Assembly: GCF_003259615.1 (NCBI RefSeq)
Contig: NZ_QLLR01000019.1
Location: 1 to 64,000, forward strand
From: Pedobacter cryoconitis
GTDB lineage: Bacteria; Bacteroidota; Bacteroidia; Sphingobacteriales; Sphingobacteriaceae
Direction of reading: 5' to 3'
DNA: 64,000 bases
In this document: positions 54,890-60,021 of the stretch, one piece after another
Numbering within the stretch: the stretch's first letter is position 1
Layout: each line of letters starts with the position of its first letter
Notes under the pieces: generated by a model
What the model was told of the DNA's origin: nothing
Seen by the model: the letters and a program-made list of their open reading frames with translations, nothing else
Database searches by the model: none
Position numbers and translations under genes: made by a program

Positions 54890-55822
54890 TTATAAGTATC
54901 TTTTTTTCCAGAGCTGCATCATATACACGTTTATTTCCCACTGATCGGCAACGGGACGGTTAGTAAAAGGGATGGTTGGCATATAAGAAGGAGGGCCAAA
55001 TTCAGTTAACATCGTGAGTATTTTACCTTGTTCTTTTTTGAGGTCCACAACTTTGTCCCACCAGGCAAAATGTGCAGCTACTTCCGCTTTCCACTCCGGG
55101 GCACGAGGATCGCTAACCTGTGGTCCTTCTGCATGTCCAATCCGCGAGTGAACATGATCTGTGCGGGAAATAGCCAGTTCAACAGTAGCCGGCTGATCTT
55201 CCAGTAAGCTTTCGCTAACATTGCACCAGTGAGAAATGTCCAGTGTAAGTCTGAGATCCGGGTTTTTTTGTAAATAAGGCAAAGCTGCGGGTGCAGAATA
55301 GAGCATACGCGACCGGTGAGTTTCATGGTAAATAGGAACGCCAGTCTTTTTTGAATAACTCACAGTGAAATCAATAAACTGTTTGTTCTGTTCATAGGTG
55401 AAGAAATCCCTTCCCGAATGCACATTGATATATAACGGTTGCTGGTATTTGTTTTCGGCTGCTGCTATAATTACCTTTTTAAATGTGGTAAAATTGCTGT
55501 CAGGAAGTGGCTCATCGCCTCTGCAAAGGAACCCTGCAGTGAGCTGATAGGTTTTCAATGCCATGAATAACTCTTTTTGCTGGGCAATAGCGGAGGGCCA
55601 TAAAATTTCTATTCCATCATATCCGTCCTTTTTTGCCTGCTTGCAAAAATCAGTTACAGATCCGTCGAAGCCCCAGTAAGGTGCCATAATCTTTAATGCA
55701 AAACCTTTTTCCAGTTTATTAGAGACAAGTTTGGGCGATCCGAAGATGTCCAGCGCAGGTAAAAGTAATGCAGTGGTTACCACAAGGCTATTTTCTATAA
55801 AATGCCGACGGTTGTATCTCAT
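54890..55822 (-). CDS. Sugar phosphate isomerase/epimerase-like TIM-barrel protein, Tat-type signal
   Basis: The 310-residue product's N-terminus M-R-Y-N-R-R-H-F-I-E-N-S-L-V-V-T-T-A-L-L resembles a Tat-like twin-arginine export signal (R-R-H-F). The xylose-isomerase-like barrel has G-Y-D-G-I-E-I-L-W-P, N-V-H-S-G-R-D-F-F, Y-H-E-T-H-R-S-R, L-T-L-D-I-S-H-W-C and V-H-S-R-I-G-H-A-E-G-P-Q. Glu, His and Asp in these strands would bind the divalent metal. Exported members are common in Bacteroidetes polysaccharide degradation. Substrate unknown. Confidence 0.9.
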   Translation of the reverse strand: MRYNRRHFIENSLVVTTALLLPALDIFGSPKLVSNKLEKGFALKIMAPYWGFDGSVTDFCKQAKKDGYDGIEILWPSAIAQQKELFMALKTYQLTAGFLCRGDEPLPDSNFTTFKKVIIAAAENKYQQPLYINVHSGRDFFTYEQNKQFIDFTVSYSKKTGVPIYHETHRSRMLYSAPAALPYLQKNPDLRLTLDISHWCNVSESLLEDQPATVELAISRTDHVHSRIGHAEGPQVSDPRAPEWKAEVAAHFAWWDKVVDLKKEQGKILTMLTEFGPPSYMPTIPFTNRPVADQWEINVYMMQLWKKRYL

Positions 55823-56077: not shown

Positions 56078-56899
56078 ATGGGTAAAATTACAGTAAAAGA
56101 CGGCACTGAAATTTATTATAAAGACTGGGGAACCGGACAACCACTTTTTTTTCATCATGGATGGCCTTTATCAGGAGACGATTGGGATGGGCAGCTAATG
56201 TTTTTCCTAAAACAAGGATACCGGGTGATCGCTCATGATCGCAGAGGACATGGAAGATCCAGTCAGGCTTCTGGCGGGCATGATATGGACACTTATGCAG
56301 CAGATGTTGCAGAGCTTACACAGGCACTTGATCTGAAAGACGCTATACACATTGGTCACTCGACCGGTGGTGGCGAAGTGATCCGTTATGTAGCCAAATA
56401 CGGGCAGGGCCGGGTTGCCAAAGCGGTACTTATAAGTGCCGTTACCCCAATAATGATACAATCTGAAAGTAACCCTGATGGAGTTCCTTCATCTGTTTTT
56501 GATGAAATACGTGAAGGTACTGCAACTCAGCGTGCACAGTATTTCCAGGATTTTACGATTCCGTTTTATGGATACAATCGGGAGGGCGCAAAAATATCTC
56601 AAGGTGTCAGGGATAACTGGTGGCGGCAGGGCATGATGGGCGGAGTAAAAGCACATCATGACGGTATTAAGGCCTTTTCAGAAACAGATTTCACCGAAGA
56701 CCTTAAAAGTGTAGATATTCCTGTACTGGTACTGCATGGTGAGGATGACCAGATTGTTCCGTTTCCTATTTCAGGAGCAAAGGCTGTGAAGCTTTTAAAA
56801 AATGGAAAACTTATTTCATATCCGGGATTTCCGCATGGGATGCCAACTACAGAAGCTGCAACCATCAATGCAGATCTTTTGGCTTTTATTAAAAGTTAA
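56078..56899 (+). CDS. Alpha/beta hydrolase, non-haem chloroperoxidase/esterase type
   Basis: In this 273-residue product the oxyanion-hole segment is F-F-H-H-G-W-P-L-S-G-D-D-W. The nucleophile elbow is G-H-S-T-G-G-G-E with Ser. The acid is in L-H-G-E-D-D-Q-I-V-P and the catalytic His is in F-P-H-G-M. The W-P-L-S-G-D-D-W pattern and overall size place it with the cofactor-free 'chloroperoxidase' (perhydrolase/esterase) group. Halogenation by that group is a side reaction, and esterase activity is the safer call. A good terminator follows. No operon partner. Confidence 0.93.
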   Translation: MGKITVKDGTEIYYKDWGTGQPLFFHHGWPLSGDDWDGQLMFFLKQGYRVIAHDRRGHGRSSQASGGHDMDTYAADVAELTQALDLKDAIHIGHSTGGGEVIRYVAKYGQGRVAKAVLISAVTPIMIQSESNPDGVPSSVFDEIREGTATQRAQYFQDFTIPFYGYNREGAKISQGVRDNWWRQGMMGGVKAHHDGIKAFSETDFTEDLKSVDIPVLVLHGEDDQIVPFPISGAKAVKLLKNGKLISYPGFPHGMPTTEAATINADLLAFIKS

Positions 56900-56945: not shown

Positions 56946-58184
56946 CTAAAAATTAATGGTTTGTTCATCTTTGGTAAACCTGGTATCTTTCACTGCACCT
57001 GTACCGCTGAAGCGATATTGCAGCCCGACTATAGCAGTGGGCTTACTGGAAAACTTAAGTGAATAAGCTACTTCGCCGTTGATTAAAAAGCGCATATGCC
57101 GGTTTTTGCTTTCCACTTTTAATTTAACCCATTGCTCAAGGTTACAGCCGAATTTGGAGAGGTCTGCATGTTTACTCTCTACTGTGGTGCCTGCCGCATA
57201 CAAAGAAAGATCACCAATACAACCTTTAGAACAAAGAGGAATAATAATCGTTTCATCTTTACAAAGAATCAATACTTCAACTCGCTGACAGGCCGCATTG
57301 CCCTGGTTAAAATCGCTTTTCAAAGTAGTTTCAAAAATAAAGTGATCGTTCTTAAAATCTCCCATATCCCGTACATTATAAAAACGCAATGCCGGGAGGA
57401 CTGGCTGTAAAGGAAGATTATACTTTGATAGTATCTCCTGATTGACCTCTACTTTATTGTTTTTCAGCACCTCATTCTTTTTAAAATATAACGGGACATC
57501 CCTATCTTTATAGACCATAGCTATCCAGCCATCGGATGCAATCATCAAATCATGTTCTTTTACTATTTGCTGGCCAACGATCAGCTTTGCCTTGTAATAA
57601 CCAGGACTATAATAGATCGTTGAATAAGTATGCTGCCGGGCTGATACTGCTACTTTTCGGGTTACATCCCACGATTGGGCAATAAATACAGAATCTGTGC
57701 CAGCAGCAGCATTGTAACTAAAAATAACCGAGTTTGGTACCCCTTTGGTTTTGATTTTATTACTGCTGAATTTATAGACTGAATGATTTATGGGGGCTTT
57801 GGTTTTAGCGGATGATAAAAGTATGGCGTAACTGGTGATCAGTAATAAGATAAAACCAGATAACCAGTATTTCCATTTTCCCTCTGTTTTCTTTACAGCT
57901 GTTGCTAAAGGCAGGCTCTGTTTAAATTGCTGCCAATCCTTATATCCTGCAAATTGTGCTAATGTATTCAATGTGGTGGTAGTCGGTGTATTGCCGTACT
58001 TCAATCTTCCCCAGAGTCGTTTTAAGGTGGTTACACTTAACAACACACCAGTGACCACCTGAATCTCATCACTTAGTTTTTCAAAATCATAACCTGTCCA
58101 ATCCGCGCTTGCACCCCGGTTTAGTTTGTTTTCTATGAGTTCCAAACACTTTTTAACAGCTACTATTTCCACGTTATTATTCAT
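56946..58184 (-). CDS. Membrane-anchored HTH protein with extracytoplasmic lectin-like domain
   Basis: The 412-residue product starts at the ATG at 58184. Residues about 1-95 are cytoplasmic and helical, with Y-D-F-E-K-L-S-D-E-I, V-L-L-S-V-T-T-L-K-R-L-W-G-R-L (a helix-turn-helix-like segment) and L-N-T-L-A-Q-F-A-G-Y-K-D-W-Q-Q-F. A single membrane span lies near 108-125. The C-terminal 280 residues are beta-rich and end like a concanavalin-type (LamG/DUF1080-like) module: W-V-K-L-K-V-E, R-F-L-I-N-G-E-V-A-Y, V-G-L-Q-Y-R-F-S-G-T-G. The topology is that of a transmembrane one-component regulator. It is divergent from a secreted ConA-like protein gene. Confidence 0.72.
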   Translation of the reverse strand: MNNNVEIVAVKKCLELIENKLNRGASADWTGYDFEKLSDEIQVVTGVLLSVTTLKRLWGRLKYGNTPTTTTLNTLAQFAGYKDWQQFKQSLPLATAVKKTEGKWKYWLSGFILLLITSYAILLSSAKTKAPINHSVYKFSSNKIKTKGVPNSVIFSYNAAAGTDSVFIAQSWDVTRKVAVSARQHTYSTIYYSPGYYKAKLIVGQQIVKEHDLMIASDGWIAMVYKDRDVPLYFKKNEVLKNNKVEVNQEILSKYNLPLQPVLPALRFYNVRDMGDFKNDHFIFETTLKSDFNQGNAACQRVEVLILCKDETIIIPLCSKGCIGDLSLYAAGTTVESKHADLSKFGCNLEQWVKLKVESKNRHMRFLINGEVAYSLKFSSKPTAIVGLQYRFSGTGAVKDTRFTKDEQTINF

Positions 58185-58307
58185 GCTGATTTTCAATCAA
58201 TTATACACTTGCATGTATTTGCACGCACTTGGCGCAACGTTGAATAGGCCCTGATTTAATTATTAATCACATTTGCTGAACTTATTCATTTAAAAGTATA
58301 ACAATTT

Positions 58308-58991
58308 ATGACAAAAATAGTAACCAGTCTCTTAAGACTTCTTCATCCCGGGAAAGAAAGAATATTTAAAACTGCTGTTTCATTGCTGATGATCAGCTGT
58401 ATGATTAGCAGCTTCAAAATTGCCCGGGCTCAGAATTTGAAGGAGAAATTCAATGTAGTGAACCGTGCGGTCAGCCTGGATAAGAAATCCGGAGCAGTAC
58501 ACCTCAATGAAGCAGAAGGTGCTGGTATTGCCTGGCTTAAGGGTAAAGTATTTACTAAAGGTATAATTGAATTTGAGGTGAAGGGAAAGGATGAATTTCA
58601 GGCCAGCTTTGTGGGCATTGCTTTTCATGGAGTGAATGATAGCATTTATGAATCTATTTATTTCAGGCCTTTTAATTTCCGTGCAGCCGATCCGGTTAGA
58701 AAGTCGCACGCAGTACAGTATATTGCTGTTCCAGGATATGACTGGCCAAAACTCCGGGATGGCTTTCCTAATAGATATGAGCAGCCGGTTTCACCTGCGC
58801 CTGATCCAAATCAATGGTTCCGGGTGAAAATAATTGTAGCTGAAGAGCTGATAAGCGTTTATGTAAATAACGGTAAGCAGCCAGTTCTAAAAGTGCGGTC
58901 ATTAACCCATACACGAGGAAAATGGATTGGTTATTGGGTAGGGAATGCCTCTGGTGGAGATTGGAGGAATTTAAAAATTACCGCCGGATAG
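58308..58991 (+). CDS. Secreted concanavalin A-like/DUF1080-like protein
   Basis: In this 227-residue product a long N-terminal region with a signal segment (about 22-44, ending R-A-Q) is followed by one jelly-roll-like module. Its blocks are G-A-V-H-L-N-E-A-E-G-A-G-I-A-W, G-I-I-E-F-E-V-K-G-K-D, F-V-G-I-A-F-H-G, Y-E-S-I-Y-F-R-P-F-N-F, and a C-terminal W-F-R-V-K-I-I-V...I-S-V-Y-V-N. No catalytic pair is visible, so a carbohydrate-binding role is more likely than hydrolysis. It is divergent from the membrane regulator whose sensor domain has a similar end. Confidence 0.78.
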   Translation: MTKIVTSLLRLLHPGKERIFKTAVSLLMISCMISSFKIARAQNLKEKFNVVNRAVSLDKKSGAVHLNEAEGAGIAWLKGKVFTKGIIEFEVKGKDEFQASFVGIAFHGVNDSIYESIYFRPFNFRAADPVRKSHAVQYIAVPGYDWPKLRDGFPNRYEQPVSPAPDPNQWFRVKIIVAEELISVYVNNGKQPVLKVRSLTHTRGKWIGYWVGNASGGDWRNLKITAG

Positions 58992-58993
58992 GC

Positions 58994-59033
58994 AACACCA
59001 TAGCATAATCCAATTGAATTATGCTATGGTGTT
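58994..59033. terminator. Bidirectional terminator, 16-bp perfect stem
   Basis: The arms 58994-59009 and 59018-59033 are exact complements with an 8-nt loop. They lie just after the secreted-protein stop and overlap the last codon of the minus-strand gene ending at 59032. There is no long T-run, so the strength comes from the stem. Confidence 0.7.
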
Positions 59034-60021
59034 AATTCAGGCTTGTTATATATTTTCTGATAAGGTCTATACCTTGCTTATCTAACACAGTTGTACCTAA
59101 CTTTGGCATATGGAATTGCCCCATATTACCCATACGATCAACGATATTGTTTTTATTAAAGTTTATTCCTGACTGTTCCACTGGTACCTTGTACCCGAGC
59201 ATAATGGATTGCCTGTAGGCCATACCATTTGAACTATGGCAATGTGCACAGTTAATTTCCAGGTAAGCCCTGGCTCTGTGTTCCAAATCAATGTTCTTAT
59301 TTTCATAATCAGGCAATCTTGATATTTTGTCGATATGCTTTTCCAGTATTAGCTTTCCCCGGGCTTGCATATAACTCAGTTGATTTACCTTTTTCTTTCC
59401 AACCTGGATCTCTCTGTTTAAATTCATTCCCTTAGGGCCAATCGGGATAATCTCCTCAGAAGATTGGTGACAGCTCACACATTCCCTGGCAGATGGGATG
59501 TGATATTTTACCCTGTGAACAGTATTGCTTTTGTCCAGCCAGTTTACATTGACTTCGGTGCTCACAGGATCATATAGTGCACGATCCTGAGCCTGGTTCC
59601 AATGGTAGGTACCTGCTGACCAATGGCCATTTTTTAAGCGCAGTATCCGGGTTTCTAAAATATGACGCGCTATGTTTTTTCCTTTCTTCGCACGGCTGTA
59701 AAAAAAAGTTTTGGCCAGTATAGTACCTTCAGGGAATTGTGGTAATCCGTCGCCATTTAATCTTAACTTTTTACCTGCAGGAAGCTTTATTAAACGTTGT
59801 TTCTCTGCATAATCCGTGAACAAAGTGGAGGATAACTGGTAAATCTCTACCCCCCGGGCAGGCAGAAGAGAATCAATTCTTCCTTTAAAAAGCCCCAGTG
59901 AAGCAAGAGATTGAGGGAATTCCTGCTGATTATTTGCGATGGTTTTGCTGTTTCTGTTGCAGGATAAAACATAACAAACAGGCAGGGCGAATATAAGAAT
60001 GACAATAATTTTTGATCTCAT
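59032..60021 (-). CDS. Di-haem c-type lipoprotein, SO2930-like
   Basis: The 329-residue product has a lipobox-like V-L-S-C (Cys near 21). Two CxxCH sites are visible: R-E-C-V-S-C-H-Q near residue 181 and N-C-A-H-C-H-S near 257, consistent with two c-type haems. The sequence between carries N-L-N-R-E-I-Q-V-G and R-L-P-D-Y. Proteins of this layout (repeats of 'E-x-N-C-x-x-C-H') are annotated as SO2930-family di-haem proteins, of unknown redox partner. It is the last gene of the TetR-adjacent minus-strand operon and overlaps the preceding gene's stop by 4 bp. Confidence 0.85.
   Translation of the reverse strand: MRSKIIVILIFALPVCYVLSCNRNSKTIANNQQEFPQSLASLGLFKGRIDSLLPARGVEIYQLSSTLFTDYAEKQRLIKLPAGKKLRLNGDGLPQFPEGTILAKTFFYSRAKKGKNIARHILETRILRLKNGHWSAGTYHWNQAQDRALYDPVSTEVNVNWLDKSNTVHRVKYHIPSARECVSCHQSSEEIIPIGPKGMNLNREIQVGKKKVNQLSYMQARGKLILEKHIDKISRLPDYENKNIDLEHRARAYLEINCAHCHSSNGMAYRQSIMLGYKVPVEQSGINFNKNNIVDRMGNMGQFHMPKLGTTVLDKQGIDLIRKYITSLN

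Follow-up and report, generated by a model that had tools for sequence, protein, structure and literature searches.

A predicted transmembrane HTH regulator with a lectin-like sensor, divergent from a secreted PF06439-like protein in Pedobacter cryoconitis and other Bacteroidota

Analysis of a 64,000-nucleotide stretch of the Pedobacter cryoconitis genome (contig NZ_QLLR01000019.1; the whole stretch is hereafter called the window) identified a divergent gene pair that encodes a predicted single-chain transmembrane regulator, in which an HTH-like domain is combined with a concanavalin-like sensor module, and a secreted partner with a related module (Table 1). The two genes are separated by a 123-bp spacer carrying an array of direct repeats. 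With moderate confidence, we regard the regulator as a one-component activator, anchored in the membrane, that would bind the array, switch on the partner gene, and sense a periplasmic, probably carbohydrate, signal. The preliminary description of this DNA had suggested an undescribed one-component system whose regulator gene is divergent from a gene for a secreted lectin-like protein; this part of the suggestion is supported, and the promoter array tracks the pair. A search of the open-access literature returned no description of the regulator family.

Table 1. Coordinates of the regulator-partner locus in the window
Feature	Positions	Strand	Basis and remarks
Regulator gene	56946..58184	-	412 aa; ORF call, AF2 model, fold matches, homologues
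Part encoding the concanavalin-like sensor module (aa 255-412)	56946..57422	-	Alignment, hhalign, AF2, VIA
Part encoding the N-terminal HTH-like domain (aa 1-90)	57915..58184	-	Alignment of S50/T53/R56; weak HTH_3
Direct-repeat array, proposed operator	58209..58244		Upstream comparisons, array scores, genome pattern scan
-7-box-like element of the predicted partner promoter, CACATTTG	58268..58275	+	Consensus TAnnTTTG, first T not kept
Divergent partner gene	58308..58991	+	227 aa; signal peptide by eye and concanavalin-like PF06439-like module

Domain architecture of the regulator

The regulator most likely starts at the ATG at 58184 and not at the TTG at 58196, since its close homologues begin with the same MNN. 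An AF2 model of the protein, built on an alignment of 68 sequences, has a mean pLDDT of 92.2 and a pTM of 0.70. The model starts with helices at residues 3-21, 31-45, 51-57, 69-78, and 84-90, and residues 1-90 are without strand; a 21-residue helix (104-124), preceded by basic residues, is taken as a transmembrane (TM) helix and is followed by two beta regions, at approximately 138-225 and 265-411. The last domain has the concanavalin/L-type-lectin/galectin/CBM66 fold: the VIA matches listed for the regulator all belong to this domain and have Z of about 11 over 127-171 residues, and Foldseek agrees on the fold, including DUF1080 structures such as BT2157 (3osd). The presence of an HTH-like domain, a TM helix, and a concanavalin-like module in one protein, as claimed in the preliminary description, is borne out by the AF2 model, with the fold of the last module also supported by VIA and Foldseek, and the predicted architecture is that of a single chain with a DNA-binding domain, a TM helix, and a sensor that would be extracytoplasmic. 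Two cysteines of the sensor module, Cys299 and Cys322, are invariant in the 68 sequences and perhaps form a periplasmic disulfide.

The N-terminal domain is the more weakly characterized part by homology. Residues S50, T53, and R56, located in the predicted recognition stretch, are invariant in 47 sequences. Matches to HTH_3 (Cro/C1-type) are weak: three of the 47 HTH-like fragments reach this family at E up to 1 (best E 0.0017), and the fragment of the window regulator does not match it at this threshold; the domain is therefore Cro/C1-like at best. With the complete regulator as query, Pfam and NCBIfam gave no match at E up to 1, and nothing useful came from PDB sequences; the profile of the HTH-like domain found weak unrelated matches only among PDB sequences (best E 0.026), and NCBIfam returned two weak irrelevant families for the 68 regulators. 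In the 6.08-Mb genome of P. cryoconitis (84 contigs), the full-length regulator has no further match at E up to 0.001; its HTH-like domain by itself is found in two more open frames, of 848 and 165 aa.

The secreted partner and its kinship to the sensor

The partner protein begins with a signal peptide, judged by eye (ending in SFKIARAQ, followed by N). Its best Pfam hit is PF06439 (E 0.0046, 17.5 bits), below the curated cutoff of 26.8 bits, which is passed by some of its relatives, such as those at L128 (29.3 bits) and L156 (28.8 bits). Apart from this sub-threshold hit, Pfam and NCBIfam returned only a weak irrelevant second family for the window partner. Against PDB sequences, the protein gave E-values of 0.25 or worse and the family profile gave best rows at E 0.05, taken as chance, with a putative secreted glycosylhydrolase (3imm) reached by the profile at E 0.065. 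The AF2 model of the partner (pLDDT 86.2) matches CBM66, 3-keto-2-hydroxy-glucal hydratases, and other lectin-like folds in Foldseek, and belongs to the same fold class as the sensor.

The preliminary description had also pointed out that the two divergent proteins end in similar modules, and profile comparison confirmed it: hhalign aligned the last regulator domain with the partner profile over 58 columns with a probability of 92.7 and an E-value of 4e-7, and the aligned columns take in the W-x-x-V/L-K motif and the I/F-x-x-x-N stretch. At E up to 0.01, 26 of 31 partner-family members match PF06439; the regulators match it weakly, 29 of 68 at E up to 1, with a best value of 1.7e-4. The fold of this family (BT2157, 3osd) is common to the partner and the sensor module, although the window partner stays below the curated cutoff and the window regulator has no match. 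An activity of 3-keto-disaccharide hydrolase is reported for the PF06439/DUF1080 family (PMC9007349). The partner can be described as a PF06439-like protein, weakly related to 3-keto-disaccharide hydrolases.

Some partner-family proteins are fused to other domains, namely, to an alpha/beta hydrolase (3 of 31) or to DUF2911 (1 of 31), which hints at a joint pathway. Fusions to the alpha/beta hydrolase were found at L128:6479-7879 and L173:6406-7914, and a DUF2911 fusion, assigned from sequence, at L171:6707-7861.

Several other genes surround the pair in the window. An alpha/beta hydrolase gene (56078-56899) adjoins the regulator, and the product of a gene at 54890-55822 resembles TIM-barrel sugar isomerases (AP_endonuc_2 in Pfam, E 1.5e-4, below cutoff) and, judged by eye, has a Tat-like leader. 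Directly past the partner gene, a cytochrome c-like protein with CxxCH motifs is encoded at 59032-60021. No tRNA was found in the window, and a plasmid search returned no near match.

Conservation of the divergent pair

A genome scan yielded 233 relatives of the regulator, of which the best 80 were kept. They come from Pedobacter, Mucilaginibacter, Sphingobacterium, Chitinophaga, Niastella, Dyadobacter, Runella, Larkinella, Emticicia, Algoriphagus, Lewinella, and other genera. One locus (L120) was dropped for want of an intact ORF at the match, leaving 79 usable loci; all counts out of 79 refer to L109-L188 only, and L060/L111 and L061/L114 are very probably identical loci. The regulator alignment comprised the window protein and 67 of the 80 loci (L113, L119, L120, L124, L127, L129, L131, L136, L137, L139, L148, L150, and L151 are absent from it), and the partner alignment comprised the window protein and 30 of 55 partner-family neighbours. 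Among 99 genomes, including that of P. cryoconitis itself, 21 have a regulator match and 23 have a partner match, all in the genus of the window. Most genomes of this genus that were searched have no match to the regulator, and the range of the family extends beyond Sphingobacteriaceae to Chitinophaga, Dyadobacter, Runella, Larkinella, Emticicia, and Lewinella. In a sample of the phylum, the family profile finds matches in 34 of 395 genomes, in many cases over one domain only.

The divergent pair is conserved, and it reaches past the Sphingobacteriaceae; together with its repeats, it is found again in related bacteria from soil and water. In 64 of 79 loci, the gene immediately upstream of the regulator falls into a single cluster, always in divergent orientation; at the remaining three flanking positions, the biggest cluster holds 7/77, 6/77, and 3/76 loci. 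The cluster of 64 evidently consists of the partner family and DUF2911 proteins, joined via the L171 fusion. By family, the upstream neighbour is a partner-family protein in 55 loci, a DUF2911-type secreted protein in 11, and neither of these in 13; in 6 of the 11 DUF2911 loci, a partner-family gene is located further along on the same strand. Neighbours were called by a greedy ORF picker (ORFs of 120 aa or more), which yielded a few spurious ORFs, for example, at L175 and L178, where a DUF2911 frame is present instead. The loci are not independent, as Chitinophaga accounts for 25 of the 79.

A regulator orthologue with 67% identity was observed in Mucilaginibacter dorajii (L110). The examined stretch of this locus has no partner-family gene and its array is decayed, as if the target and the site had been lost together.

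A direct-repeat array between the divergent genes

The proposed operator consists of four units, with TTG starting at 58209, 58219, 58229, and 58240 on the plus strand, and therefore has a period of 10-11 bp; on the minus strand, the units read TTCAA/GCGCCAA/GTGCAA/ATGCAA with N4 spacers. The preliminary description had reported a CACTTG repeat with a 20-bp period in this region. This repeat is present as described, at 58206-58211 and 58226-58231; as a unit of its own it was rejected, being two of the four units of the array, and the 10-11 bp period is found in 67 of 79 loci vs. 33 of 79 for the 20-21 bp period. Other periods also fit worse (9-10 bp, 53/79; 11-12 bp, 11/79).

The array was scored as three repeats with 10-11 bp spacing. 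It passes in 67 of the 79 regulator upstream regions (4 of 79 when the reverse strand is scored) and in 2 of 506 control genes, a set that excludes genes shorter than 150 aa and those with the middle within 3 kb of the middle of the regulator; thus, the array is more than chance. Since refinement of this final score followed inspection of all loci, the held-out test relates to the earlier score only: at a cut of 13.5, and with the nine loci inspected first omitted, 50 of 70 loci pass vs. 2 of 506 control genes.

The presence of the array depends on the neighbour. It was found in 53 of 55 loci with a partner-family neighbour, in all 11 with a DUF2911 neighbour, and in 3 of 13 with neither. Conversely, of 22 partner homologues having no regulator in the examined stretch, one, L081, scores above the threshold; a regulator-partner pair, L062, scores below it (13.0). 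Of seven further pairs, the window included, six have the array. It is absent from 12 of the 79 loci and present in 11 of 13 genera, in Algoriphagus barely and without the partner. With up to three mismatches, the array pattern has a single site in the 6.08-Mb genome.

Geometry of the partner promoter

The -7 box of Bacteroidota promoters has the consensus TAnnTTTG (PMC6847099, PMC9723704). In the window, 32 bp separate the first base of the TTTG in the -7-box-like element from that of the nearest repeat, and transcription of the partner gene is predicted to start near 58280. A TTTG on the partner strand in the same register to the array is found in 48 of 67 array loci, with a mean of 2.4 and a maximum of 8 in 500 shuffles, and is absent in the other 19. 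For the 46 loci with AnnTTTG in register (the window included), TTG is observed at -32/-33 in 29, at -43/-44 in 45, at -53 to -55 in 45, and at -63 in 16 loci, counted from the TTTG; TTG at -27 is observed in 8.

In Flavobacterium johnsoniae promoters, TTTG is assigned to T-8 T-7 T-6 G-5 (PMC6847099). By this assignment, the repeats would lie at approximately -40, -51, -61, and -71, which is where an activator beside RNA polymerase would sit. The -33 motif is reported as generally weak in Flavobacterium promoters (PMC6847099), and a missing -33 motif therefore speaks only slightly in favour of an activator. At L176, the array and its register are kept before a beta-helix-like gene (assigned by a Pfam match just below cutoff) instead of the partner gene, in line with the divergent gene being the target.

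Distant paralogues in glycan loci

Other genomes of the genus contain distant paralogues of the regulator, with about 20% identity, of which 14 loci (L067-L078, L100, and L101) were examined. A divergent upstream neighbour is present in ten of them and not in four. Pfam was run on seven of the paralogue neighbours. SusC-like TonB-dependent proteins are encoded divergently from L073, L077, and L101 (in the last, the regulator frame is split) and downstream of L072; the neighbours at L071 and L067 belong to GH36 and GH92, respectively, and the one at L070 matched no Pfam family. L074, L076, L078, and L100 are alike by eye. Judging from these neighbourhoods, the regulator family looks tied to glycan loci, and the neighbours of several distant paralogues suggest a wider family of glycan-locus regulators with a topology unlike that of SusR.

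In the SusC- and GH36-linked paralogues, the array was not found at the position and in the orientation proposed here. One high score at L078, on the opposite strand, is chance-like, and aligned upstream blocks are shared by three and by four paralogues, too few for a motif call. Paralogues that lack the array in the proposed place probably read other sites.

Proposed mechanism and alternatives

In the proposed mechanism, the N-terminal HTH-like domain would lie in the cytoplasm, with one TM helix crossing the inner membrane and the beta and concanavalin-like domains in the periplasm, where the latter part of the regulator would be engaged by a signal. From the fold of the sensor, the nature of the partner, and the paralogue neighbourhoods, we infer that the signal is probably a carbohydrate. 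At least two regulator subunits may then occupy the tandem 10-11 bp repeats in head-to-tail orientation and, from positions of about -40 to -71, aid RNA polymerase at a promoter that has a -7 box and mostly lacks a well-placed -33 box. The divergent gene would thereby be switched on, and its product, a secreted lectin-like protein of the PF06439 type, would act on or hold carbohydrates of the same class. About 20-25 bp separate the end of the array from the regulator start codon, and binding therefore probably also limits expression of the regulator itself.

The same site could instead serve repression of both genes, with the periplasmic signal relieving it, a possibility that we consider unlikely. 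The array is located within the shared 123-bp region, from which both promoters could be blocked, and the repeat with TTG at -32/-33 from the TTTG, present in 29 of 46 loci, could overlap the polymerase site. However, the most constant repeats, those at about -51 and -61 (45 of 46 each), are upstream of the core promoter, and the low count of TTG at -27 slightly favours activation, weak as -33 motifs are in Flavobacterium anyway. A different objection to activation by the regulator is that the array may serve an unlinked regulator or a structural role in the promoter, the membrane protein being a co-regulated sensor or anti-factor that does not bind DNA. The weak HTH similarity and the occurrence of distant HTH-like domains on NTPase-looking proteins (L104, L106, and L107; see below) are compatible with this explanation, but it is made very improbable by the invariance of S50, T53, and R56 and by the near-confinement of the array to the side of the regulator gene together with its single site in the genome, which would be odd for an unlinked factor.

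The remaining question concerns the role of the partner, for which the preliminary description had proposed a ligand binder or competitor. The partner could itself be the signal or a co-sensor that binds the ligand and docks on, or competes with, the lectin-like domain of the regulator, thus providing feedback: the two modules are related and predicted to occupy the same compartment, and the pair is retained over long distances. Against this stand the wide variation in partner length (212 to 502 aa across loci) and architecture, including fusions, and the DUF2911 protein that takes the place of the partner at 11 loci. Such variation and replacement are more in keeping with a target of regulation than with a protein whose binding is obligatory, and the co-sensor role appears doubtful, with little probability attached to it; more simply, the partner would be the product of the regulated gene.

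Comparison with known regulatory systems

Three Bacteroidetes-specific types of regulators are named for polysaccharide loci: SusR-like proteins, HTCSs, and ECF sigma/anti-sigma factors (PMC3878776). SusR, the maltose/starch regulator of Bacteroides (BT3705), resembles the window regulator in having a periplasmic sensor, a cytoplasmic DNA-binding domain, glycan genes under control, and direct repeats as sites, but its HTH is C-terminal and its sites are 67 or 77 bp apart (PMC3878776). In the window regulator, the order of domains is reversed, with the HTH at the N-terminus and a concanavalin-like sensor, and the repeats are 10-11 bp apart, the best fit among the periods compared (9-10 to 20-21 bp). 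HTCSs and ECF sigma/anti-sigma pairs of Bacteroidota control carbohydrate loci upon outside glycans (PMC3878776). The window regulator matches no kinase, receiver, or AraC family of an HTCS, its 412 aa being filled by the HTH, the TM helix, and two beta domains, and it matches no Pfam or NCBIfam family of ECF sigma or FecR-type anti-sigma factors. Across the 68 family members, no kinase, receiver, sigma, or anti-sigma domain occurs among the first 25 of 36 Pfam families or the two NCBIfam families.

ToxR/CadC/TcpP-type regulators have an N-terminal cytoplasmic DNA-binding domain, a single TM helix, and a C-terminal periplasmic sensor, and the window regulator shares this predicted order of domains. 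ToxR/CadC/TcpP-type proteins carry an OmpR-like winged helix, a fold that needs strands. The window regulator differs from them in the five helices of residues 1-90, a segment that is strandless in the AF2 model and has no Pfam match, in the fold of its sensor, and in its phylum. Transmembrane transcriptional regulators are treated as a class in PMC11856585, and the OmpR-like winged helix is reported for VtrA and VtrB in PMC5693285.

We give about even credence to a joint claim, namely, that the family forms an additional class of Bacteroidota carbohydrate regulators beside SusR, HTCSs, and ECF/anti-sigma systems. In this class, an N-terminal HTH would be followed by a TM helix, a beta domain, and a concanavalin-like sensor. 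One branch would control a single divergent gene for a lectin/3-keto-hydrolase-like protein through helically phased repeats that replace the -33 element, and other branches, by way of other sites, would control loci that contain SusC-like, GH36, or GH92 genes. The sensor, as part of the same claim, would apparently have been recruited from the fold family of the enzyme-like protein under its control. If true, the class offers a further route, contained in a single protein, by which a carbohydrate signal in the periplasm could reach a promoter, and suggests a way for a Bacteroidota activator to occupy the place of the -33 element. The predicted operator makes the regulator directly testable, and use as a compact biosensor is possible.

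Other carriers of the HTH-like domain

The HTH-like domain was also observed in fusion proteins of about 780-860 aa with a part that is NTPase-like by eye, at L104:2826-5366, L106:4723-7062, and L107:4976-7555. The L106 protein matches NPHP3_N with E 8.7e-5, just below cutoff. These fusions possibly represent a second signalling class with the same domain. A similar large fusion is encoded in the P. cryoconitis genome itself, on contig C6 near position 70972.
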